Under the pieces are notes generated by a model that was not told where the DNA came from, ran no database searches, and was given only the letters and a program-made list of their open reading frames with translations. Position numbers and translations under genes: made by a program. Below, in pieces: positions 6,923 to 63,936 of a DNA stretch of 64,000 nucleotides (its first letter is position 1; the number at the start of each line of letters is the position of its first letter). Location of the stretch: positions 80,244 through 144,243 of IMG/VR virus record IMGVR_UViG_3300013099_000017; one strand, 5' to 3'. The DNA comes from a virus.

Positions 6923-6941
6923 CTACTTGATTTAAAACGCT

Positions 6942-6982
6942 ATTCTTATTAAATGACGTTTAAATGACCATTTAATAAGAAT
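6942..6982 (+). repeat. 14-bp inverted repeat (hairpin)
   Basis: ATTCTTATTAAATG at 6942 pairs perfectly with its complement at 6969-6982 across a 13-base loop. It lies 20 bases after the nuclease gene. There is no T-run after it, so it is not a standard intrinsic terminator, although it may stabilise the 3' end or bind a protein. Confidence 0.6.
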
Positions 6983-7047
6983 ATCCATCCTACCACACCA
7001 ATTCACATATTAAAACGTCATTTAAACGTCAAATAAAAGCAACTTTT

Positions 7048-7097
7048 CCTTATAAATCAACAACTTATCCCATAATAAGAAAATCCTTATAAATCAA
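7048..7097 (+). repeat. two direct repeats of CCTTATAAATCAA
   Basis: The 13-base word occurs at 7048-7060 and again at 7085-7097. AACGTC/GACGTT words also recur around 6957 and 7014-7030. The rest of 6983-7180 contains no gene that I can support. Confidence 0.45.
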
Positions 7098-7181
7098 TGA
7101 CTTAGAAAAAGCCTTGGTATTGTTGGAAACTCATATAAACACTGAAAAATATTCATATTAAGTATGAATATTATGCATATT

Positions 7182-7315
7182 AAAAAAATAATGCTTGACA
7201 GGGGTTGACAAGATTTCAACTAGTGGTATAATTCCACTGTTAATAATGAATGTTAGGGATCTATAATATATTATGTAGAAGAAAAAGGTTTGCCTTTGGC
7301 AATGCCGTAGGCAGT
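7182..7315 (+). promoter_or_regulatory. strong sigma70-type promoter, copy 1 of a duplicated region
   Basis: TTGACA at 7205-7210 and TATAAT at 7227-7232 are both perfect, with a 16-base spacer. The short inverted repeat AGTGG/CCACT flanks the -10 box and could be an operator. About 100 bases from before the -35 to beyond GTAGAAGAAAA are nearly identical to 54440-54568. The leader ends in a small GGC/GCC hairpin. It should be read by unmodified host RNA polymerase, so early expression of 7343 onward is likely. Confidence 0.8.
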
Positions 7316-7342
7316 TAATTAATGAATAATAAGGAATAAATA

Positions 7343-13175: not shown

Positions 13176-13189
13176 TGATATATATCCCA

Positions 13190-30812: not shown

Positions 30813-33182
30813 ATGTCAGAAGAACTAATACTTACCAATTTAATACATAATGATGAATTTATAAAAAGAGCATTACCCTTCCTAAAATTATCATATTTTC
30901 AATATGAAGAAAATAAATTAATCTTTGAGCAATATGTCAGATACTACGCAAAGTATAATACAAAACCAACGGCTGAAACTCTTGCTCACGAAATAGCAGA
31001 AATAGAAGAAATTCGTGATGATACCCTTGAAAACACATTGGAAAGTTTGGGTGATCTTGAACAGGATGAAGAACCCAATATTGAATGGTTAGTAAATACA
31101 ACCGAGGGTTTTTGTCAAGAACGTGCTATTTATAATGCTATTCAAAATTCAATTGACATTATTGATGGTGTTGATGAAAAACACACTAAACACGCTATTC
31201 CCGATATTCTTAAAAAAGCCTTATCAATTTCATTTGATGTTAAGTTAGGTCATGATTATTTAGAAGATGCTGAAAAGCGTTTTGAATTTTATAATTTAGA
31301 TCATCCAAGAATCGAATTTGACATTGAAATGTTGAATAAAATTACCAATGGTGGTTGTCCAAGAAAAACTTTAAATGTTCTATTAGGAACCACTAATGTA
31401 GGTAAAGCTGAAAGTATTTTTACTAAATTATTAACTCCAACTGGAATTAAAATGTTTGGTGATTTAAAAGTTAATGATTATGTTTATGGTAGTGATGGAA
31501 ATCCAACTAAAATTATCAATACATATCCCCAGGGAGAATTACCATTATATGAAATAACATTCAAAGATGGTAGATCAACACAATGTTCATATGAACATCT
31601 TTGGAATGTATATAAAGGCGATAATAAAGAACAAATTACAATTGATTCTAATGAAATATTTAGGTTGATGGATTTAAAATATTACAGTAAAAGATTATGG
31701 ATACCATTATCTAAACCAATTAATTTCAATAAAGAATATAATTTTAATATAGATCCATATTTAATGGGTGTTTATTTGGGTGATGGTACTACAATGGCTG
31801 AATCTATTGGAATATCATCTAATGATAACCATATTATTGAAAAAATAAAAAATATCATTGATATTGATGATATGGATATCAAATATAAATCAAAATACGA
31901 TTATATAATTAAGTCTAGGTTCACTGGTGAAAATGAATATTTAACAGAGTTAAAACAATATAATTTATTTAAAGTGAAATCAGATAAAAAGTTTATTCCA
32001 AAAGAAATGATGAATTCTACAATTCAAAACAGATGGGATTTATTGACAGGATTGATTGATTCTGATGGATATTGTGGTAAACATGGAACATTACAATATT
32101 ATACTACAAGTGAACAACTTAAAAATGATGTAATTGATCTTGTAAGAAGTTTAGGTGGGATTGCCACAAGTAAAGATAAACAAACATATTGTAATGGAAA
32201 AAAAGGATTACCATCTTATGATATAATGATTAAAATTAATCCTGAAAATGGATTAAATATTAGTCCAAATAAAAAGAATGTGGAAATATTTAATAATAGA
32301 ATAAAAATTCCAAAACTAAAAATTGAATCAATAAAGAAAATACACAAAGAAGAATGTATGTGTATTAAAGTTGAAGCAAAAGATCATTTATATTTAACAA
32401 AGGATTTTATTGTTACTCATAATACATTGGGATTAGTACATATGGCAACTGCATATATGAATCTTGGTTATAATGTTGCATATATCACAGCGGAAATGAG
32501 TGAAGAAGCAATTGGTAATCGTGTTGATGCTAATGAATTTCAAGTTAATGTGAATGATGTAGAAGATATGGATTTCGATATCTTCATGAATAAAATTAAT
32601 GCCATTAAGAATAAAACAAAGGGTCGATTAAAAATACACGAATATCCTACAAGTACAGCTCATACAGGTCATATTAAGACATTATTACAAGAATGGCAAT
32701 TGAAGATGAATTTCACGCCAGATATTATAATGATAGATTATATAAATATTATGGCAAGTAGTAGGGTCAAGTTAGCTAATACCGGATCATATTTTTACAT
32801 TAAAGCCATTGCCGAAGAATTTAGAGCATTGGCAGTAGAAACAAATACAGTTTTATGGACTGCTACTCAATCAAATCGAGGCGGTGCTAATAATCCAGAT
32901 GTTGATTTAACTGATACGAGTGAATCATTTGGTTTACCTGCAACTGCTGATTTTATGTTGGCATTAATCAGAACAGAAGAATTGGATGCTTTGGGTCAAT
33001 TAATGATCAAACAATTAAAATCAAGATATGGCAATAAGGGCTATTATGAGAAATTTGTAATTGGTTCTAACATTAATACAATGAGTTGGTATGATGTTGA
33101 TGATACTGCTCAATTTGATGATGTTATTAAAGAAGATACAAAGCAAAAACATAAGGGGAAATTCGATGATTTTAAAATTTAA
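30813..33182 (+). CDS. gp41-like replicative DNA helicase with a class 3 intein
   Basis: The spliced protein (residues 1-198 plus 538-789, 450 aa) follows T4 gp41, the hexameric 5'-3' helicase of the replication fork. It has LSISFDV.LGHDYLED before the ATPase core, Walker A GTTNVGK-T at the splice junction, AYITAEMSEEAIGNRVDAN, the Walker B strand IIMIDYINIM, TATQSNRGG and QLKSRYGNKG. The intein splits the P-loop after the lysine, so the helicase is inactive until splicing. The primase partner is at 43843. Confidence 0.92.
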   Translation: MSEELILTNLIHNDEFIKRALPFLKLSYFQYEENKLIFEQYVRYYAKYNTKPTAETLAHEIAEIEEIRDDTLENTLESLGDLEQDEEPNIEWLVNTTEGFCQERAIYNAIQNSIDIIDGVDEKHTKHAIPDILKKALSISFDVKLGHDYLEDAEKRFEFYNLDHPRIEFDIEMLNKITNGGCPRKTLNVLLGTTNVGKAESIFTKLLTPTGIKMFGDLKVNDYVYGSDGNPTKIINTYPQGELPLYEITFKDGRSTQCSYEHLWNVYKGDNKEQITIDSNEIFRLMDLKYYSKRLWIPLSKPINFNKEYNFNIDPYLMGVYLGDGTTMAESIGISSNDNHIIEKIKNIIDIDDMDIKYKSKYDYIIKSRFTGENEYLTELKQYNLFKVKSDKKFIPKEMMNSTIQNRWDLLTGLIDSDGYCGKHGTLQYYTTSEQLKNDVIDLVRSLGGIATSKDKQTYCNGKKGLPSYDIMIKINPENGLNISPNKKNVEIFNNRIKIPKLKIESIKKIHKEECMCIKVEAKDHLYLTKDFIVTHNTLGLVHMATAYMNLGYNVAYITAEMSEEAIGNRVDANEFQVNVNDVEDMDFDIFMNKINAIKNKTKGRLKIHEYPTSTAHTGHIKTLLQEWQLKMNFTPDIIMIDYINIMASSRVKLANTGSYFYIKAIAEEFRALAVETNTVLWTATQSNRGGANNPDVDLTDTSESFGLPATADFMLALIRTEELDALGQLMIKQLKSRYGNKGYYEKFVIGSNINTMSWYDVDDTAQFDDVIKEDTKQKHKGKFDDFKI
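31407..32423 (+). mobile_element. class 3 intein with LAGLIDADG homing endonuclease
   Basis: The element spans helicase residues 199 to 537 (339 aa). It starts with Ala rather than Cys/Ser and ends THN before extein Thr. The class 3 signature is visible: Trp 264 in block B (EHLW), Cys 517 in block F (MCIKV) and Thr 535 in block G (VTHN). In this class the block F cysteine attacks instead of residue 1. Two LAGLIDADG-like helices, LMGVYLGDG near 317 and LLTGLIDSDG near 409, indicate an active-looking homing endonuclease. Confidence 0.85.
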
Positions 33183-46161: not shown

Positions 46162-49100
46162 ATGACAGATGAAACATTTAGATTAATGCATGAAGCAGAA
46201 ATATTACACAAAAGGATTAAAGAGTTAATGGAAAACACAAAATTTCAGGATGAATTCAGTAAAGAAATATGGCAAAGTACATATAAAGATCACAGTGATG
46301 AAAACGTTGATGATACATTTAGACGGGTAGCAACATATGTAGCAAGCGTTGAACCATCATTTGAATTACAATTAGAATGGCAACAAAAGTTTTATGATGC
46401 TTTAACTGATTTCAAAATCACGGCTGGTGGAAGAATTTATTCAAATGCAGGTACAGAGTGGGCTAAAAAGGGGACAGGTTTATTAAATTGTTATGTTGCT
46501 CCAAGAAAAAATAAAGATATTGATAGTCTTAATAATATCTTAGATACGGTTAAAGATCAAAGCAATACATTAAAATCCGAAGGGGGTTGGGGAGAAAATT
46601 TCTCTTATATTAGACCAAGGGGAGGTTTTATTCATGGTGTTGGTGTAGAAACTCCAGGAGCAGTTAAATATATGGAAATATTTGACAAAACTTCTGATGT
46701 TATTACAAGTGGTTCAGGTCGTAAATCAAAAAATAAAAAAGCTAAAGGTAAAATCCGTAAAGGTGCAATGATGGGTGTATTAGATTGCTTATCAGGAAAT
46801 ACATTAATTGATACAATAGATGGTAAAATTGCTATTAAAGATTTAGTTGGAAAAAATCCATATCTATATTGTACTGATGGTAATGGTAATATATTTGTTA
46901 GACAGGCACAATTAGTATGGTCAAAAGGTATTAGAAAAACAATTAAAATAACTATGGATGGTCATGAAACATTAGAATGTACACCAGAACATGAAATAAT
47001 GCTATCAAATGGTTCTTATAAAATGGCAAAAGATTTAACAACTGGTGATAGTTTATCAGTATTAAATCGAAAAATGTATAATAAACAATATATATATTTA
47101 GGTGTATCAGGAAATAGAATTAAAATAGCAGAACATCATGCTACTTATGAAATGAAATATGGTGAATATCCTACATGTACAGGTAAAAAAAGAAAAGGTT
47201 GGATGACATTAGCACATCATAAAGATGAATGTAAATGGAATAATCATCCTGATAATATTGAAAAAATGACATTATCAGATCATGCTAAATTACACGACAA
47301 CATTTTAAGAGAAAATCAAAAAAGAATTTCTAAAGAAAGAAAGGGGAAAAGTTGGGATGAATATTATGGTAAAGAACTAGCAGATCGTATTAAAAAATCA
47401 TCAAATTTCAATCATAAAGTAGTTAAAATTGAAACGCATATTGAACAAGAAGTGTTTGATATTGCTATGCCAGAGTATCATAATTTTGTAGCAAATGGGG
47501 TATTTGTACATAACTGTTGGCATCCAGATATTTTTGAATTTATTACAGCAAAACAAAATGCAGGAAGATTGACCAAATTTAATATGTCAGTAAATTGTAC
47601 AAATGAATTTATGGCAAGAGTAATTGAAATTGAAGATAATGGTTGTGATGAATTTGATACAATTGATATTTGGGATCTTAAATTTCCGGATACCACTTAT
47701 TCAAAATATAGTGATGAATGGGATGGTGATTTAGAATTATGGGAATCTAAGGGATATCCAACTATTATACATGATACCGTTAGTGTTAAGCACTTGTGGA
47801 ACATTATAATGGAATCTACTTATAATCGTGCAGAACCTGGAATTTTGTGGTGTGATCGTGCTAATGAATTTAACCCTGCTTATTATATTGAAAAAATTCG
47901 TGCAACAAATCCATGCGGTGAACAATTTCTTGCTGAGAGTGGTGTATGTGATTTAGCATCATATAACTTAACTCAGTATATTGAAGAAGATTCAAATGGT
48001 GGACATTATTTCAATTTTGAGAAATTTGAAAAATATATTTCCGTTGGTGTAAGATTTTTAGATAATGTTAATACTGTATCAAATTCACCATTACCAGAAT
48101 ATAAAGATTCTATGTTAAATAAACGCAGAATTGGTTTAGGTATTTTAGGGTGGGGATCATTGTTATTCATGTTAAAAATTCGTTTTGGTAGTACGGATGC
48201 TAATACTTTACGTGATAAAATAATGCAAACATTAGCAACTAAATCATATGAATATAGTATTGATTTGGCTATTGAAAAAGGTATGTTTACTTATTGTGAT
48301 CCAATTAAACATGCTGATGGTAAATTTATTCAAAATCTACATTTATCACAAGATTACATGGATAAATTAAGAACTACAGGTATTAGAAATAGTTCATTAT
48401 TATCATGTCAGCCTACCGGAAACACATCTATTTTTGCTAATATTGTGAGTGGCGGGATTGAGCCTGTATTCATGCCAGAATATATCAGAACTGTTATCGT
48501 TAATAGTATGCCCGAAGAAATTTCACATGTTTGTCCAAAATGGTATGAGGGTGAATGGAATGAAACCGATGTGTTTTCATTTACCAAAGAAGGTGATGAA
48601 GAAATTCTTAAAGGTAAAATGAATGGCATCATGTATAAAATTGACAAAAATCGTGGATTAACAAAAGAAGTATTGTGTGAAGATTATGGTGTACGTTGGT
48701 TAAAAGCCCGTGGTGAATATGATCCAACTGCTGATTATATTGTAACTACAACTGAATTAACTGCTGATGATCATTTAAATGATTTAAAAGGATTTGCAAG
48801 ATGGGTAGATAGTGCGTTAAGTAAAACAATTAATTTACCAAATGATTATTCCTTTGAAGATTTTAAAAACGTTTATCTTGATACTTACAAAACGGGATAT
48901 ATTAAAGGTATAACTACTTATCGTGCAGGTACAATGACAACTGTATTGAGTTCAGTTGATGATCAAATAAAAGAAGAAGAAATTATTCTTGATGATGTTA
49001 AAATGCCTGATAGTGCCTCAGCTACAATTAAAACAATTAAAGCCGAAGGTAAAAAATGGTATTTAACGATTGTTTATCATACAGATAGTGATAAACCATT

Positions 49101-49503
49101 TGCATTATTCGTTAAAACAAATTCAAATGAAAAAACAGTTAATGCTAATAATGCTATTGAAGTATTAACAAAATTAGCATATAAAAAAGGTATTCCGGAA
49201 CAACATATTGAAACAACAATATCCAAAATAAATCAAGATAGTAATGCCAGTAAAATTACACGTATTATTTCATTGATGTTAAGACATGGTGTTTTAATTA
49301 AAAACATTGTACTTGCATTGGATACCATTGAAGATGTATATGTTGGTTCATTCTTATTTCAAATTAAGAAATTTTTAAGTTCTTATGTTAAGGATGGGGA
49401 AAAAGTTGAAGGGGCTAAATGTGAGAATTGTGGATCTGATAAGATTGAATTTTCAGAAGGTTGCTTCAAATGTGTGGAATGTGGAAGTTCTAAATGTGGT
49501 TAA
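46162..49503 (+). CDS. nrdJ: class II ribonucleotide reductase (NrdJ-like) with an intein
   Basis: It reduces ribonucleotides to deoxyribonucleotides, with adenosylcobalamin as radical source. The spliced protein is about 870 residues. GGWGENFSYIRPRGG near residue 138, GAMMGVLD-C split by the intein, NPCGEQ at 583, QPTGNTSIFA near 752 and a C-terminal zinc/cysteine tail (CENCGSDKIEFSEGCFKC, then SSKCG) are as in B12-dependent enzymes. No separate small subunit is nearby, as expected for class II. Confidence 0.88.
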   Translation: MTDETFRLMHEAEILHKRIKELMENTKFQDEFSKEIWQSTYKDHSDENVDDTFRRVATYVASVEPSFELQLEWQQKFYDALTDFKITAGGRIYSNAGTEWAKKGTGLLNCYVAPRKNKDIDSLNNILDTVKDQSNTLKSEGGWGENFSYIRPRGGFIHGVGVETPGAVKYMEIFDKTSDVITSGSGRKSKNKKAKGKIRKGAMMGVLDCLSGNTLIDTIDGKIAIKDLVGKNPYLYCTDGNGNIFVRQAQLVWSKGIRKTIKITMDGHETLECTPEHEIMLSNGSYKMAKDLTTGDSLSVLNRKMYNKQYIYLGVSGNRIKIAEHHATYEMKYGEYPTCTGKKRKGWMTLAHHKDECKWNNHPDNIEKMTLSDHAKLHDNILRENQKRISKERKGKSWDEYYGKELADRIKKSSNFNHKVVKIETHIEQEVFDIAMPEYHNFVANGVFVHNCWHPDIFEFITAKQNAGRLTKFNMSVNCTNEFMARVIEIEDNGCDEFDTIDIWDLKFPDTTYSKYSDEWDGDLELWESKGYPTIIHDTVSVKHLWNIIMESTYNRAEPGILWCDRANEFNPAYYIEKIRATNPCGEQFLAESGVCDLASYNLTQYIEEDSNGGHYFNFEKFEKYISVGVRFLDNVNTVSNSPLPEYKDSMLNKRRIGLGILGWGSLLFMLKIRFGSTDANTLRDKIMQTLATKSYEYSIDLAIEKGMFTYCDPIKHADGKFIQNLHLSQDYMDKLRTTGIRNSSLLSCQPTGNTSIFANIVSGGIEPVFMPEYIRTVIVNSMPEEISHVCPKWYEGEWNETDVFSFTKEGDEEILKGKMNGIMYKIDKNRGLTKEVLCEDYGVRWLKARGEYDPTADYIVTTTELTADDHLNDLKGFARWVDSALSKTINLPNDYSFEDFKNVYLDTYKTGYIKGITTYRAGTMTTVLSSVDDQIKEEEIILDDVKMPDSASATIKTIKAEGKKWYLTIVYHTDSDKPFALFVKTNSNEKTVNANNAIEVLTKLAYKKGIPEQHIETTISKINQDSNASKITRIISLMLRHGVLIKNIVLALDTIEDVYVGSFLFQIKKFLSSYVKDGEKVEGAKCENCGSDKIEFSEGCFKCVECGSSKCG
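46786..47514 (+). mobile_element. intein with HNH endonuclease in ribonucleotide reductase
   Basis: A 243-residue element (residues 209 to 451) begins with Cys (CLSGNTLIDTIDGK) and ends VFVHN before extein Cys, so it is a class 1 intein. Block B is HETLECTPEHEIML. An HNH-like module (LAHHKDECKWNNHPDNIEKM) replaces the usual LAGLIDADG. The insertion is in the conserved GAMMGVL.C.HPDI active-site region. Confidence 0.85.
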
Positions 49504-56524: not shown

Positions 56525-57538
56525 ATGAATAAACAATATGATGTAATTGTGTACATTGGGCGTTTCCGTCCACAACATAATGGACACACCAAAATAATTC
56601 AAGATATCTCACAGTTAGCCAAAAAAACATTGGTTATTGTTGGATCAAAATCAAACCCAATTACCATTAAAAATCCGTGGACTTATGAAGAAGTCTCTGA
56701 TATGATCAAACATTCTGTACATGTTCAATATATGACAATTGCAGGAGTTGAAGATTATACCTATGATGATTATAAATGGATCAATGAAGTTAATAAACTG
56801 GTTGATAAAGAAACCGTTGGTATCGTTAATTCAAAAATTGCTATTGCAGGTTATGATAAAGATCACACAAGTTATTATTTGAAATATTTTCCACAATGGG
56901 ATTTTATTGAGCAAAAGGCTTATAGAGAATATGGCACAATTGTCAATGGTACTGATATTCGTACAGAATTCTTTAAAGGTAATACTCACCACATAAAATC
57001 TATTGTACCACCATATGTATTTGATGTTATTTTGGGGATGGATAGTAAACGTAAAAAATATCTACAAAATGAATATAATGGTATTATTGAAACACAAAAG
57101 AAATATGGTACGGGTAATAATGTATCAACTGATGCAATTGTGGTTCAATCAGGACATCTTCTATTAGTACAACGTAAAGAATCCGGAATTGATTTATGGG
57201 CTATGCCTGGGGGTTTTCTTGAACCTGATGAACTTTTAGTAGAGGGTGTTATTCGTGAATTAAGACAAGAAACTGTACTCAAAGTTCCTGAAAAAGTTTT
57301 ATTGGGTAGCATTAAAGAAATTAAACTATTTGATAAAATTGATCGAGATTTACGCAGTAGAATTATCACACAAGTTTATTTATTTAAACTGGATGATAAT
57401 TTAGATTTACCCAAAGTGAAAGGAAGTGATGATGCAAAAGAAGCAAAATGGGTTTCTATTCATGAGTTTTATAATATGAGATCTGTAATGTATGCTGATC
57501 ACTATCACATAATTGAAAAAATGTTGGAGAGTTTATAA
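56525..57538 (+). CDS. bifunctional NMN adenylyltransferase / Nudix hydrolase (NadM-type)
   Basis: Residues 1 to 175 are a nicotinamide mononucleotide adenylyltransferase: GRFRPQHNGH at residue 13 holds the ATP-binding HxGH. Residues 200 to 330 are a Nudix domain with GGFLEPDELLVEGVIRELRQ followed by ET. Together they convert NMN and ATP to NAD+ and cleave ADP-ribose or a related compound. The same fused enzyme is known from T4-like Vibrio phage KVP40. AAGGAGTTTTATAAG precedes the start. Confidence 0.9.
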   Translation: MNKQYDVIVYIGRFRPQHNGHTKIIQDISQLAKKTLVIVGSKSNPITIKNPWTYEEVSDMIKHSVHVQYMTIAGVEDYTYDDYKWINEVNKLVDKETVGIVNSKIAIAGYDKDHTSYYLKYFPQWDFIEQKAYREYGTIVNGTDIRTEFFKGNTHHIKSIVPPYVFDVILGMDSKRKKYLQNEYNGIIETQKKYGTGNNVSTDAIVVQSGHLLLVQRKESGIDLWAMPGGFLEPDELLVEGVIRELRQETVLKVPEKVLLGSIKEIKLFDKIDRDLRSRIITQVYLFKLDDNLDLPKVKGSDDAKEAKWVSIHEFYNMRSVMYADHYHIIEKMLESL

Positions 57539-58911: not shown

Positions 58912-60288
58912 ATGTCAATAATTACAGATGTAGATAGCTACAAAGTGGGGATGTTTAAACAATATCCTCCAAAAACTGAATATGTTTCAAGTTATATTGA
59001 ATCAAGGGGATCAGATGATCCGGATTTTGATGAAAGTGTATTCTTTGGTTTAGAATATTACATCAAAGAATATCTTATGAAACCTGTTACAATGGAAGAT
59101 CTTGAAGAAGCAAAAGAGATTTTTGATTTACATGGTGAACCATTTCCATATGATGAATGGAAATATATCATTGATGAATATGATGGATATTTACCACTAA
59201 AAATTGAATCGGTTCTGGAAGGTTCGGTACTACCACTATCAAATGTGTTAGTCCAAATTACCAACACTGATCCAAAATGTTTTTGGCTTACAACATGGGT
59301 AGAAACTCCAATACTGAGAAATGTTTGGTATGCTTCAACTGTTGCAACCAATTCAAGAGCAATCAAAAAAGAACTTAAAAAATTCTATGATAAATCTGGT
59401 TCTGTTGATGGGTTGGATTTCAAACTACATGATTTTGGTGCAAGGGGTGTATCGAGTAAAGAATCTGCTGGACTTGGTGGACTTGCTCACCTTATTAATT
59501 TCATGGGAACAGATAATGTTGAAGCATTGATGTTTGGTAGAAAGTATTATAATATTCTTATGGCTGGATTTAGTATTCCTGCTAGTGAACATAGTACAAT
59601 TACAGCATGGGGCATAAAAAACGAAAATAAAGCATTTGAAAATATGCTAAATCAATTTCCTGATTATCCTATAATTGCATGTGTTTCTGATAGTTATAAT
59701 ATTTATAAAGCTGTTGATGAATTATGGGGCAAACAATTCAAACATAGAATTCTTGATGGAAATCAAACTATTGTTATTCGTCCGGATTCTGGTGATCCAT
59801 TAACTGTACCAATTGAAGTTATTGAACGGTTAATGGCGAAATTTGGATATAGTGTAAATTCCAAAGGTTATAAAACATTACCAAAACAAGTACGAGTTAT
59901 TCAGGGTGATGGTATAACAAAAGATTCAATTAAACTTATTCTTGGTAATATGGAAAAAGCTAAATTGACTCTTGATAATCTTAGTTTTGGTATGGGATCG
60001 GGTATGCTTCAACAAGTTAATAGGGATACACTTAAATATGCCATGAAAGCAAATGCAATTTGTATTGATGGTGTTTGGTCAGATGTATACAAAGATCCTA
60101 TTAATGGTGGTAAACAGTCTAAACGTGGTGTATTAGGTTTATATCATAATGAAAACGATGGATGGATTACTGAACGTAAACTTCCAAATGATGAATCATT
60201 TAATAATTTAAATGTTGTTTATGATACAGGTATTATGAAAACAGATACACTATTTAAATTTGTTAGACAAAGAGCGAGAATAGAATAA
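58912..60288 (+). CDS. nadV: nicotinamide phosphoribosyltransferase (Nampt/NadV)
   Basis: It makes NMN from nicotinamide and PRPP. HDFGARG near residue 172, SIPASEHST near 223, IRPDSGDPL near 289, IQGDGI near 330 and FGMGSGMLQQ near 360 are the family landmarks, and 458 residues is normal. With the NadM-type enzyme at 56525 it completes a two-step route from nicotinamide to NAD+. AAAGGAG precedes the start. Confidence 0.93.
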   Translation: MSIITDVDSYKVGMFKQYPPKTEYVSSYIESRGSDDPDFDESVFFGLEYYIKEYLMKPVTMEDLEEAKEIFDLHGEPFPYDEWKYIIDEYDGYLPLKIESVLEGSVLPLSNVLVQITNTDPKCFWLTTWVETPILRNVWYASTVATNSRAIKKELKKFYDKSGSVDGLDFKLHDFGARGVSSKESAGLGGLAHLINFMGTDNVEALMFGRKYYNILMAGFSIPASEHSTITAWGIKNENKAFENMLNQFPDYPIIACVSDSYNIYKAVDELWGKQFKHRILDGNQTIVIRPDSGDPLTVPIEVIERLMAKFGYSVNSKGYKTLPKQVRVIQGDGITKDSIKLILGNMEKAKLTLDNLSFGMGSGMLQQVNRDTLKYAMKANAICIDGVWSDVYKDPINGGKQSKRGVLGLYHNENDGWITERKLPNDESFNNLNVVYDTGIMKTDTLFKFVRQRARIE

Positions 60289-60291
60289 TAT

Positions 60292-60393
60292 ATCCCATTG
60301 TAGGTATATACATTGTTTCCCAATTATAAGATAATATCCTTGTGGTTGGGGAAACTTCTCCCATTTTTAATAAACTTCCAAAAGGAAATCAAA
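60292..60393 (+). promoter_or_regulatory. promoter cassette
   Basis: CCCATTGTAGG centred at 60299, GATAAT at 60330 (31 bases), GTGGTTGGGGAAACTTCTCC leader hairpin and CTTCCAAAAGGAAA before ATG 60394. Confidence 0.75.
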
Positions 60394-60651
60394 ATGACAA
60401 CTCCAAAAATTAATTTTACTAATATGTTCACTGATGAAGGTGAAGATATGGGTTTTGCTATTACTGTGAATGATTGCTCATTCGGTAGTGCTACATTAGT
60501 TGAAGATGGTCGTGGTAATGAAAGCTACAACGTTTTATCTGGTGTTGGTACATTTGAATCTGATGATCAGGATGAAATCCTTGCTATCTTACTGGAACGT
60601 TTAAATTATGTTGGTTCTGCAATAAATGATTCCGAATATATCCCATTGTAG
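60394..60651 (+). CDS. hypothetical protein (85 aa)
   Basis: Starts MTTPKINFTNMFTDEGEDMG; acidic, soluble. It is alone between two cassettes and its last codons run into the second dyad. Confidence 0.6.
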   Translation: MTTPKINFTNMFTDEGEDMGFAITVNDCSFGSATLVEDGRGNESYNVLSGVGTFESDDQDEILAILLERLNYVGSAINDSEYIPL

Positions 60652-60690
60652 GTATACTCATAAATAGTTTTTTATGAGATAATAATCTCA
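60640..60690 (+). promoter_or_regulatory. promoter cassette feeding a non-coding region
   Basis: CCCATTGTAGG centred at 60647 and GATAAT at 60678, 31 bases apart. The next gene starts only at 61241, so the transcript opens with the structured region. Confidence 0.65.
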
Positions 60691-60701
60691 CTTAATAAAA
60701 A

Positions 60702-60955
60702 AAGGTAAAGCGTTTCCTGAATGGTTGGCAATATCATAATGATGTGATAATTACCTTATATATATAAAATATTCTTTTAATTCAACTGAGGATAATACAA
60801 TGAAATCAGCCCCATAATGGGGTTCATCGTACCCAAATTGGGGTACTGATGCTAAATGTGAAATATTATTACTGGTCATACCGAGTGTATTGCAGGAAAT
60901 GGTTTGCAGACAGTGATAAAATAATTTATTATTGGGGAACTACCCCCTTATTCAG
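60702..60955 (+). ncRNA. structured non-coding region B, first part
   Basis: AAGGTAA 60702 pairs with TTACCTT 60751, enclosing a TATCA/TGATA hairpin. Next come CCCCATAATGGGG at 60810-60822 and GTACCC 60829 with GGGTAC 60841, both enclosed by ATCAG 60805 and CTGAT 60846. GGGG/CCCC at 60934-60947 follows. ATG 60801 opens only a few codons, so this is non-coding. Confidence 0.5.
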
Positions 60956-61100
60956 CATTTTGTAATTGACTAAGTTTTATCGTATATGGTCATGGGTTGC
61001 CAAAGTTTGCAAACTTAGCGGTTCAATTCCGAATAGATAAAAAAGCTGGTTTGCCTTAAAATGGGAGTTCAATTCTCCCATGTTAGTCAATTACAAAGTG
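60956..61100 (+). ncRNA. structured non-coding region B, tRNA-like multibranch domain
   Basis: An 18-bp stem, CATTTTGTAATTGACTAA at 60956 with its partner at 61083-61100 (one G-U pair), encloses three elements: TTTTATC/GATAAAA 60975/61036 around an AAGTTTGCAAACTT palindrome and CGG-TTCAATT-CCG; and GGGAG-TTCAATT-CTCCC at 61063-61079. TTCAATT matches a tRNA T-loop, but no valid anticodon arm or CCA end fits, so it is not a standard tRNA. Confidence 0.6.
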
Positions 61101-61218
61101 TTGATATAATCTGAGATATTTTTGTATAAATGGGTGTACTTTTACACCCTTTCCAATTATTTGGAATTGTAGATAATGTCTATAAGTTTATAGTGTTTTA
61201 TGTCTCAGATTATATCAA
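61101..61218 (+). ncRNA. structured non-coding region B, cloverleaf domain
   Basis: A perfect 16-bp stem, TTGATATAATCTGAGA at 61101 with TCTCAGATTATATCAA at 61203, encloses three hairpins: GGGTGTA/TACACCC 61132-61149, TTCCAA/TTGGAA 61151-61166 and CTATA/TATAG 61180-61193. The result is a four-way junction of about 118 bases directly next to the previous domain. Confidence 0.65.
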
Positions 61219-61240
61219 TATTTAATTACAGGTGTATATT

Positions 61241-61546
61241 ATGATAAATAAAACGTTTACCAATTCCGATGAATTTCTTTTGAATGTATTTAAACATGAT
61301 GAAATTAATGATGTTGAAATAACATTAGAAAGTTATAATTCCGATGTGGCTATATATTCGGGTTATATGTTAGCAGATGATTTTGCATATACATTAGATA
61401 TGGATGATGAAGATGAAATTTATATTAGTGTTGAAATATATAATAATCTGTCTGAAATTGAAATGGAATATGATATTGAAACTTTGGTGAAGCATAGTAT
61501 CGTTAAAGTTTATTTCAATAGTTTTTTGGTATTAGATAAAGAATGA
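61241..61546 (+). CDS. hypothetical acidic protein (101 aa)
   Basis: ATG 61241 after ACAGGTGTATATT. Highly acidic, with MDDEDEIYISVEIYNNLSEI near residue 58. First gene after structured region B; it may be translated from the same transcript. Confidence 0.55.
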   Translation: MINKTFTNSDEFLLNVFKHDEINDVEITLESYNSDVAIYSGYMLADDFAYTLDMDDEDEIYISVEIYNNLSEIEMEYDIETLVKHSIVKVYFNSFLVLDKE

Positions 61547-61812
61547 AAACTAAATTAAGAATTAAAATTATAAATTACTTTGATAAACATCTTTTAGCAG
61601 AAATTGATGCAAAAGATTACGATGTTATTATCGTTGCCAATACTTATGAACAGGAATTCATTGTGGTTCATAATAATGTTATGGAATATGATAGCTCAGT
61701 TAGATTACAATTGATTGAGGTTAATAGTTATATATTGGATTGTTATGATGCCTATAATGGTGTAAGTGAATTAAATTTACACAAGGCTAATACAAATCGA
61801 TCATGGATTTAG
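61543..61812 (+). CDS. hypothetical protein (89 aa)
   Basis: ATGA overlap. Begins MKTKLRIKIINYFDKHLLAE; alpha/beta. Unknown. Confidence 0.5.
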   Translation: MKTKLRIKIINYFDKHLLAEIDAKDYDVIIVANTYEQEFIVVHNNVMEYDSSVRLQLIEVNSYILDCYDAYNGVSELNLHKANTNRSWI

Positions 61813-63035
61813 AAGCATATTATGAAACTCAATATCATGATTGGTATAATTCCGAAAATTTTAATAATCAACATGATTTGGAGTTTATTGAAAATCAATT
61901 AAAATGGGAACTTGAATACTATTCAAATATGAGTGTGGAAGAATATACTCTGTTTGTTAAATTTAATGAATTACATAATACTTATAATGTTTCAAATAAA
62001 AATACATTGTTTGGCACTCAATTAAGACCAAATGCAGATTTAAGTTTTATTAATCAAATCAAAAAGAATATCTGGAACTCAGATGATTATATGTCATTGG
62101 AACCAGAATTATTATTATGTAAAGATAATCCAAAATTAAACAAAATTCGTAAAACTTTAAATGATTTTATAACTACTGGAAAAAATCAAAATAATATTGG
62201 CAGAAATTTATATTATATTGTAAGAGATAAAATAACCTTAAAATATTTGGGGATAATTACAATATCCTCTGATTATTTGGATTTAACTTGTCGAGATAAT
62301 AAAATAGGTTGGGATAAGGAACGCAAAACACAACAAATGATTAAACACTCTGTTGTATGTTCAGCATTAGTGCCTACACAACCGTTAGGATACAATTATG
62401 TTGGTGGTAAGCTGTTATCCCTATTGGTATTATCAAAACAGGTACAAGATGATTACAAGCGTATCTATGGTGATAAATTAGTTCATTACACAACTACTTC
62501 ATTGTATGGATCATTCTCCCAATATACAAGATTGAAATACTGGAAAAAAGTTGGTAAATCAAATGGTACTGTGATATTAAAACCAAGAGATAGAACATTA
62601 ATAAATCTAATGAAAGATTGGATAAGATTTATTGAACCTAAACGATTTTGGGAATGGTGGATTGCTAATACAATTAATGGTCAAAGATTTAAACGAGATC
62701 ATATCAATAGATTTTTTGTATTCTGTTATAGTAAATTAAATATCAATAGAAGTGAATATATATCCGGTCATAAACGTGGTGTATATGTTGCAGAATTATA
62801 TGAGAATACCAAAGAATTTCTAAGAGAAGAAATTACAGAAGATGAATTAATTCCAAAATTTGATAATTCTATTGAAGCATTGACTGATGTTTGGAAAAAT
62901 AAATATGCCAAGAAACGTTATGATAATTTGGTTAAAAATAACAGACTATTAAATGATGTATTATTTTATGATGATATATTATATAATGATTGGGATATAA
63001 TAAAGGATAAGTATTTGAAACAGGTTGGGAGATAA
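61803..63035 (+). CDS. DruA/DUF4338-like protein (410 aa), possible DNA modification enzyme
   Basis: Residues 135 to 265 contain LGIITISSDYLDL, CRDNKIGWDKERK, SALVPTQPLGYNYVGGKLLS, YGDKLVHYTTTSLYGSFSQY and KVGKSNG. This order matches the DUF4338 domain found in DruA of the Druantia system and in Mom-like proteins, thought to be GNAT-type acyltransferases. In phage Mu, Mom modifies adenine to block restriction. About 130 residues on each side are unassigned. The start overlaps the previous gene by 10 bases. Confidence 0.55.
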   Translation: MDLEAYYETQYHDWYNSENFNNQHDLEFIENQLKWELEYYSNMSVEEYTLFVKFNELHNTYNVSNKNTLFGTQLRPNADLSFINQIKKNIWNSDDYMSLEPELLLCKDNPKLNKIRKTLNDFITTGKNQNNIGRNLYYIVRDKITLKYLGIITISSDYLDLTCRDNKIGWDKERKTQQMIKHSVVCSALVPTQPLGYNYVGGKLLSLLVLSKQVQDDYKRIYGDKLVHYTTTSLYGSFSQYTRLKYWKKVGKSNGTVILKPRDRTLINLMKDWIRFIEPKRFWEWWIANTINGQRFKRDHINRFFVFCYSKLNINRSEYISGHKRGVYVAELYENTKEFLREEITEDELIPKFDNSIEALTDVWKNKYAKKRYDNLVKNNRLLNDVLFYDDILYNDWDIIKDKYLKQVGR

Positions 63036-63851: not shown

Positions 63852-63936
63852 ATCCCATTGTGGGTATATGCAAGCAAGATAAAATCAAATATAATATAAT
63901 CTGAATTGAGAGATAAACTTCCAAAAGGAAAAGAGA
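63852..63936 (+). promoter_or_regulatory. promoter cassette
   Basis: CCCATTGTGGG centred at 63859 and a perfect -10 TATAAT at 63890, 31 bases apart. The GGGG hairpin is missing but CTTCCAAAAGGAAA precedes the ATG. Confidence 0.75.

Follow-up and report, generated by a model that had tools for sequence, protein, structure and literature searches.

A predicted pair of adjacent structured RNA domains in a T4-type phage genome, one of which resembles tRNA-like, double-T-arm elements of other phages

We analysed a 64-kb stretch of viral DNA (hereafter the window), which corresponds to positions 80244-144243 of a 144,243-base IMG/VR record (GC 29%). This marine phage is of the T4 type, based on a DNA polymerase that is 41% identical to those of cyanophages and on the presence of a DnaB-type helicase, a primase and an RNA ligase/tail-fibre protein. 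Two genes of the window carry probable inteins, namely the DnaB-type helicase gene (30813-33182), which is split by a segment that matches terminase-type PHROGs, and the ribonucleotide reductase gene (46162-49503), with an HNH-matching insert. The locus under study lies downstream of an orphan gene (60394-60651), itself 3' of the nicotinamide phosphoribosyltransferase gene (58912-60288), which together with a cytidylyltransferase-Nudix fusion (56525-57538) constitutes an NAD salvage pair. It is followed on the plus strand by a second orphan gene (61241-61546), which opens a likely operon that includes one more orphan and ends with a DruA-family gene (PF14236; 61803-63035). The latter gene is stand-alone; the Pelagibacter phages Mosig and HTVC008M have it too, at 44-45% identity, as do many viral contigs. 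The DruA neighbourhood was rejected as a link to the region, as Pelagibacter phages carry DruA without any such gap.

The initial annotation had placed a promoter cassette ahead of a structured region devoid of coding capacity, and both statements are borne out. No open reading frame of at least 55 amino acids is present between 60652 and 61231, and an exact copy of a phage promoter motif, a ATATATCCCATTGTAGGTATA block and a GATAAT block at fixed spacing, occupies 60636-60683 on the plus strand. The cassette consists of ATATATCCCATTGT[A/G][A/G]GTATA and, exactly 36 nt further on, GATA[A/C]T; it occurs genome-wide, with 16 exact copies of the motif in the 144-kb genome and 19 upon looser matching. 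In 10 of 13 plus-strand copies, that at 60636-60683 included, GATA[AC]T is found exactly 36 nt 3' of CCCATTGT, against a background frequency of 0.0017. Within the window, two-block copies on the plus strand are located at 13186, 14947, 16814, 51441, 55298, 60294, 60642 and 63854; the fixed 36-nt spacing of this phage-specific promoter gives it a layout comparable to that of T4 middle promoters, and in several cases a leader hairpin, for instance GGGGATTTCCCC, stands between the copy and the ribosome site.

Next, we examined the folding of the ORF-less region, in which four self-contained base-paired domains had been described. The last two, D3 (60956-61100) and D4 (61101-61218), stand out clearly, whereas the first two do not: the 5' part (60702-60955) comprises one weak hairpin at 60703-60757, followed by loosely grouped hairpins at 60786-60955, with z-scores of −1.6 and −1.9, and is probably leader sequence whose structure is not clearly above chance. 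D3 is closed by the 18-bp acceptor-like stem that the annotation had reported (60956-60973 with 61083-61100, one G-U pair), directly inside which a 7-bp helix with the 5' strand TTTTATC (60975-60981 with 61036-61042) is found both in the minimum-energy fold and in an alternative cloverleaf. The likewise reported perfect 16-bp stem of D4 (61101-61116 with 61203-61218) is the longest perfect stem of the window, can be extended with G-U pairs to about 21, and encloses three hairpins in the predicted fold, GGGTGTA/TACACCC (61132-61149), TTCCAA/TTGGAA (61151-61166) and a third around AATGTCTATAAG (61167-61187, limits approximate).

The D3 and D4 stems are the two longest Watson-Crick stems (loop of 20-220 nt) in the window, at 15 and 16 bp, and they are adjacent; the longest stems in two shuffled 64-kb sequences were 13 and 15 bp. 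Either stem taken singly is within chance, and the adjacent pair with its inner structure is beyond it. Compared with dinucleotide shuffles, the z-scores are −6.6 for D3 (60953-61101), −9.9 for D4 (61099-61220) and −7.5 for the whole region, with zero shuffles folding as well. Among 983 folding windows on the plus strand D4 ranks as the most structured (z-score of −9.0, the next being −5.3). The second most structured place, at 6923-7342, likewise lacks ORFs; it contains a perfect inverted repeat of 15 bp (6954-7031) and has an overall z-score of −4.3. Furthermore, folding favours the plus strand over the minus strand by 8-12 kcal/mol (D3, −48.9 vs −40.4; D4, −49.2 vs −37.2), and it is on the plus strand that the promoter motif precedes the region.

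Within D3 we find two exact tRNA T-loop signatures (GTTCAATTC). The two TTCAATT loops that had been noticed are both present (61022-61028 and 61068-61074), and the more 3' of them, T-arm 2 (61061-61081), forms the expected hairpin with a 7-bp stem (P=0.997); the hairpin of T-arm 1 (61019-61031, CGG-TTCAATT-CCG, an exact G53-TTCRANY-C61 signature) fares poorly in the folding model (P=0.006). A gap of 1 nt separates T-arm 2 from the closing stem's 3' strand, in the manner of a T-arm stacked on an acceptor stem. The T-arm 1 signature is enclosed by the 7-bp inner helix, 45 nt from the closing stem, and as a hairpin has only 3 pairs. The motif GTTCRANYC occurs 14 times on both strands of the 144 kb, and two of these occurrences lie inside D3, 46 nt apart; at the genome rate, the calculated probability of two in a given 110-nt interior is about 1e-5. 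This distance is too short for two neighbouring tRNAs and D3 is therefore not a tRNA pair. The folding model prefers a rod-like D3 over the cloverleaf by 8 kcal/mol. Folding without tertiary contacts is not decisive on T-arm 1, because the minimum-energy fold of an RNA of phage Aeh1 likewise misses its T-arm 1, which is preserved by covariation among the relatives of Aeh1.

The domains matched none of the RNA families that we searched for. Rfam, both at the gathering cut-off and at E<=10, returned only chance-level matches in the region and none to tRNA, GOLLD, ROOL or tmRNA, and ARAGORN at default settings did not recognise D3, in agreement with the earlier statement that these sequences are not standard tRNAs. 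The assignment of D3 to tRNA (RF00005) was thus rejected, being below the cut-offs of both the covariance model and ARAGORN; with lowered ARAGORN thresholds 87 chance matches appear in the window, so the 3 in the region carry no meaning. For a tmRNA with a tag ORF there was no match in Rfam or by ARAGORN at default settings, the only such call arising at a relaxed ARAGORN threshold. Neither a clear D-arm nor a recognisable anticodon loop was found in D3. No tRNA genes lie near D3 or D4, the two of this genome being about 77-82 kb away. A distant-mode BLAST search of 60000-62000 against phages matched no phage record, T4 RNAC and RNAD included. Searches via the neighbouring proteins, gp43, DNA, and records with similar elements found no close relative of the region in the collections covered; the routes through neighbouring proteins, gp43 and DNA gave only distant proteins (33-54% identical) and a 32-kb fragment (L066) that has an identical gp43 and no significant match to the D3/D4 region. 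These collections contained no sequence relatives in which covariation within D3 and D4 themselves would show.

We then asked IMG/VR for the layout rather than the sequence. Two scans for T-loop signatures closer together than those of tRNAs can be each listed more than 100 stretches; matches inside ordinary tRNAs were dropped, and a closing stem of at least 7 bp abutting T-arm 2 (0-1 nt) was required. The layout further calls for a second T-arm, GTTCRANYC with a stem, within the closed domain at 20-60 nt from the closing stem. D3 has a closing stem of this kind, of 18 bp and with a gap of 1 nt, and the second signature at 45 nt, though with a disfavoured hairpin. Among the matches listed, 25 phage contigs besides the window share the layout, in which a T-arm directly adjoins an acceptor-like stem of 7-22 bp that also encloses another T-arm; some of the elements with 7-8 bp stems are expected by chance. 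Among the matches listed, T-arm 1 starts 21-52 nt after the stem (45 in D3) and the two T-arms are 29-59 nt apart (46 in D3). Closing stems that abut T-arm 2 exceed expectation at each length among the matches listed, window included (at least 7 bp, 41 vs 19 expected; at least 9 bp, 13 vs 4.25; at least 11 bp, 6 vs 0.8). D3 is not alone in having a long stem, since one contig (L254) reaches 22 bp, about 200 nt from a tRNA-Met, and another (L096) 17 bp. Upon setting aside one lambdoid family, 30 of the 77 double-T-arm matches listed lie within 500 nt of a tRNA, against an expectation of 19.3, and every one of these 30 has the orientation of the tRNA. D3 is not near a tRNA cluster, and likewise 47 of the 77 other elements listed have no tRNA within 500 nt; a tRNA-cluster location is thus frequent and not universal, and it was therefore not used to define the layout.

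Three unrelated families of such elements display compensatory changes in the closing stem and in both T-arms: Aeh1-like T4-type Aeromonas phages, lambdoid prophages and jumbo phages. The distinct sequences are few (5, 15 and 3, respectively). In the Aeh1 group 8 pairs are changed on both sides and in the jumbo-phage family (L264, L299, L272) 7, neither of which was reached in 500 shuffles; in the lambdoid family compensatory changes affect 13 of 34 pairs. The Rfam tRNA model accepts some elements of this layout as tRNAs with about 50 extra nucleotides, which in the jumbo family it places in the anticodon loop. T-arm 1 thus appears to replace the anticodon, and on their sequences the elements would be tRNA-shaped and unable to decode unless spliced. 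We know of no bacterial intron type as short as about 50 nt.

The Aeh1-like Aeromonas phages contain an ORF-less gap of about 460 nt with three tandem tRNA-like RNAs (L321:1529-1985, L322-L327). The first combines a 14-bp acceptor-like stem with a D-arm, with T-arm 2 and with an inner helix that holds T-arm 1; this RNA is known from Aeh1, Ah1, PX29 (where it is labelled 'tRNA-OTHER'), AsFcp_2, avDM12-TAAL, phiAS5 and phiWae14. It resembles D3 in its T4-type host phages, in its place within an ORF-less gap, in the long acceptor-like stem abutting T-arm 2 and in the second T-arm within the inner helix, but differs in its clear D-arm, and it has no sequence similarity to the window. In contrast to D3, the phiAS5 RNA is recognised by the Rfam tRNA model, with a large insert. 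As to the remaining Aeromonas tandem RNAs, the second has a 16-bp acceptor stem and the third carries an insert of about 50 nt in its anticodon loop; the annotation of the three is inconsistent (tRNA-Val, tRNA-Leu with intron, tRNA-OTHER, or nothing). The lambdoid-type double-T-arm RNA is about 130 nt long and is found in Salmonella phages SPN9TCW and SPN1S, Citrobacter phage phiNP and others (L085, L131, L135, L143, L154, L174, L087, L127, L080, L185, L188, L094, L108, L079, L320). It sometimes lies beside a tRNA-Arg, covariation in it is strong, and Rfam has no separate family for it; of 5,426 E. coli genomes, only 2 contain it. The jumbo-phage, L254 and L298 elements had no match among named phages.

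Among characterised RNAs, the nearest in kind are RNAC (species 1) and RNAD (species 2) of T4, long known as stable RNAs, which are late transcripts validated by northern blot and of unknown role (PMC9697503, PMC3014915). Like D3 and D4 they are two adjacent non-coding RNAs of a T4-type phage (139 and 119 nt in T4); RNAC has a 3' T-arm (CCGGGTTCGAATCCCGG) and a fold z-score of −4.6, and RNAD, like D4, is without a T-arm. Unlike D3 and D4, they lie at the end of a tRNA cluster and lack a closing stem of 16-18 bp, and RNAC has a single T-arm. With a canonical tRNA D3 has in common the T-loop signature and the stacking of acceptor stem and T-arm; it differs in its closing stem of 18 rather than 7 bp, its two T-loop signatures, the absence of a CCA end, and the absence of a recognisable D-arm or anticodon loop. 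A pseudo-tRNA of Bacillus cereus, tRNA-Other, is described in PMC3399842 as tRNA-derived, without a role in translation and with a deletion phenotype; it is bacterial and a single tRNA-like unit. GOLLD and ROOL are, as D3 and D4 would be, phage-encoded, non-coding and multibranched RNAs of unknown function, but they gave no covariance-model match here and are much larger, with many GOLLD RNAs over 800 nt.

Overall, D3 agrees with the recurrent layout in its stem, in the stacking and in the spacing; the missing D-arm and the weak T-arm 1 set it apart. Because of this fit and of the resemblance to T4 RNAC and RNAD, where RNAD lies beside RNAC and has no T-arm, we read D3 and D4 as stable tRNA-like RNAs: on balance we favour D3 being a non-decoding tRNA-like stable RNA akin to RNAC/RNAD, with D4 as its companion. 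The promoter at 60636-60683 would drive transcription of D3 and D4 on the plus strand; the two domains lie ahead of the 61241-63035 operon and would probably share one transcript with it. D3 would present the recurrent phage arrangement, a long acceptor-like stem continued directly by a T-arm, and its inner helix would hold the second T-arm signature at the place of a tRNA anticodon loop, without decoding. The long stems and the acceptor/T-arm helix may let host RNase III, RNase P or RNase Z excise the domains, which by analogy with RNAC and RNAD would then persist as small stable RNAs. Their T-arm and acceptor surfaces could be bound by proteins that recognise these parts of a tRNA (TruB, TrmA, RNase P, EF-Tu, or a defence that senses tRNA); that D3 and D4 in this way act as a tRNA mimic or sponge is a speculative step, which we consider rather doubtful. 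A decoy for tRNA-cutting defences, as the initial annotation had suggested, would be a conceivable role, but D3 has no recognisable anticodon loop and is therefore unlikely to divert anticodon nucleases in particular.

The initial annotation had offered four options, and a phage RNA class is the best supported of them, given the 25 other contigs among the matches listed and the covariation in three families. The structured leader, which it had also proposed, would have D3 and D4 act in cis in the mRNA of the 61241-63035 operon, on its stability, processing or translation, with the T-loop signatures incidental. The promoter lies upstream, we found no terminator-like site between D4 and gene 61241, the end of D4 is 22 nt before the start codon, and the next copy of the promoter motif downstream is only at 63854. 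The fold, however, shows no strong helix that sequesters the ribosome site of 61241, and the other elements with this layout, among the matches listed, tend toward tRNA clusters and the tRNA strand and not toward a position before one gene; we regard a purely cis-acting leader as unlikely. The absence of a terminator makes a leader role and a stable-RNA role compatible.

A cluster of decayed tRNA genes, the remnants of which kept their T-arms and acquired repeats, would account for the two T-loop signatures and for weak D-like and anticodon-like arms, and T4-type phages often carry tRNA clusters. Perfect closing stems of 16 and 18 bp, far beyond the length of a tRNA acceptor, would not survive such decay, the same-layout families elsewhere retain their stems through compensatory change, and tRNA genes are absent nearby; this part of the initial annotation fits poorly and is improbable. 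A DNA-level element, in which the two long inverted repeats side by side serve recombination or replication or represent transposon ends, is more improbable still, considering the strand asymmetry of folding through G-U pairs, the internal hairpins, the single copy in the genome, and that neither a target-site duplication nor a transposase is seen at the repeat ends. Finally, a distinct large ornate RNA with D3 and D4 as two of its domains is the least probable reading, for although an ORF-less phage stretch of about 500 nt with multibranch domains recalls such RNAs, which are often near phage tRNAs (PMC12286853), and phage ICP1 offers the precedent of an abundant 800-nt ncRNA (PMC7567579), no GOLLD, ROOL or other Rfam family matches and the first 250 nt are not clearly structured.

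Returning to D3 as a non-decoding tRNA-like RNA, we tentatively propose a broader possibility, that phages widely encode tRNA mimics that do not decode and have so far escaped recognition as a class. In these, a T-arm would be stacked on a long acceptor-like stem and a second T-arm domain would replace the anticodon loop. D3 would be a divergent member without a D-arm, and the class, possibly together with T4 RNAC and RNAD, might act as a sponge or decoy on tRNA enzymes that bind the T-arm or on defences that sense tRNA. Tandem or double T-arm RNAs yielded nothing relevant in the open-access literature. Phage tRNA-like stable RNAs as such are already known; the double-T-arm layout we did not find described in the open literature. 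The recurring layout and its covariation in three families provide a concrete, testable definition of what RNAs of the RNAC/RNAD type may share, the proposed traits being a T-arm on a long stem and a second T-arm in place of the anticodon. Candidates exist in cultivable phages, for instance Aeh1 and phiAS5, in which deletion and pull-down are possible. Annotation pipelines overlook such elements or assign them to 'tRNA-OTHER' or to intron-containing tRNAs; the records of named phages leave the double-T-arm elements unannotated or list them as 'tRNA-OTHER', tRNA-Ala or tRNA with intron. A different kind of reduced tRNA was observed in one contig (L134, minus strand, near 830-1000), which encodes two tRNA minihelices, each with a short acceptor stem, a T-arm and an encoded ACCA end and without a D or anticodon arm, for example GGTCAAG ... 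T-arm ... CTTGACC-ACCA.
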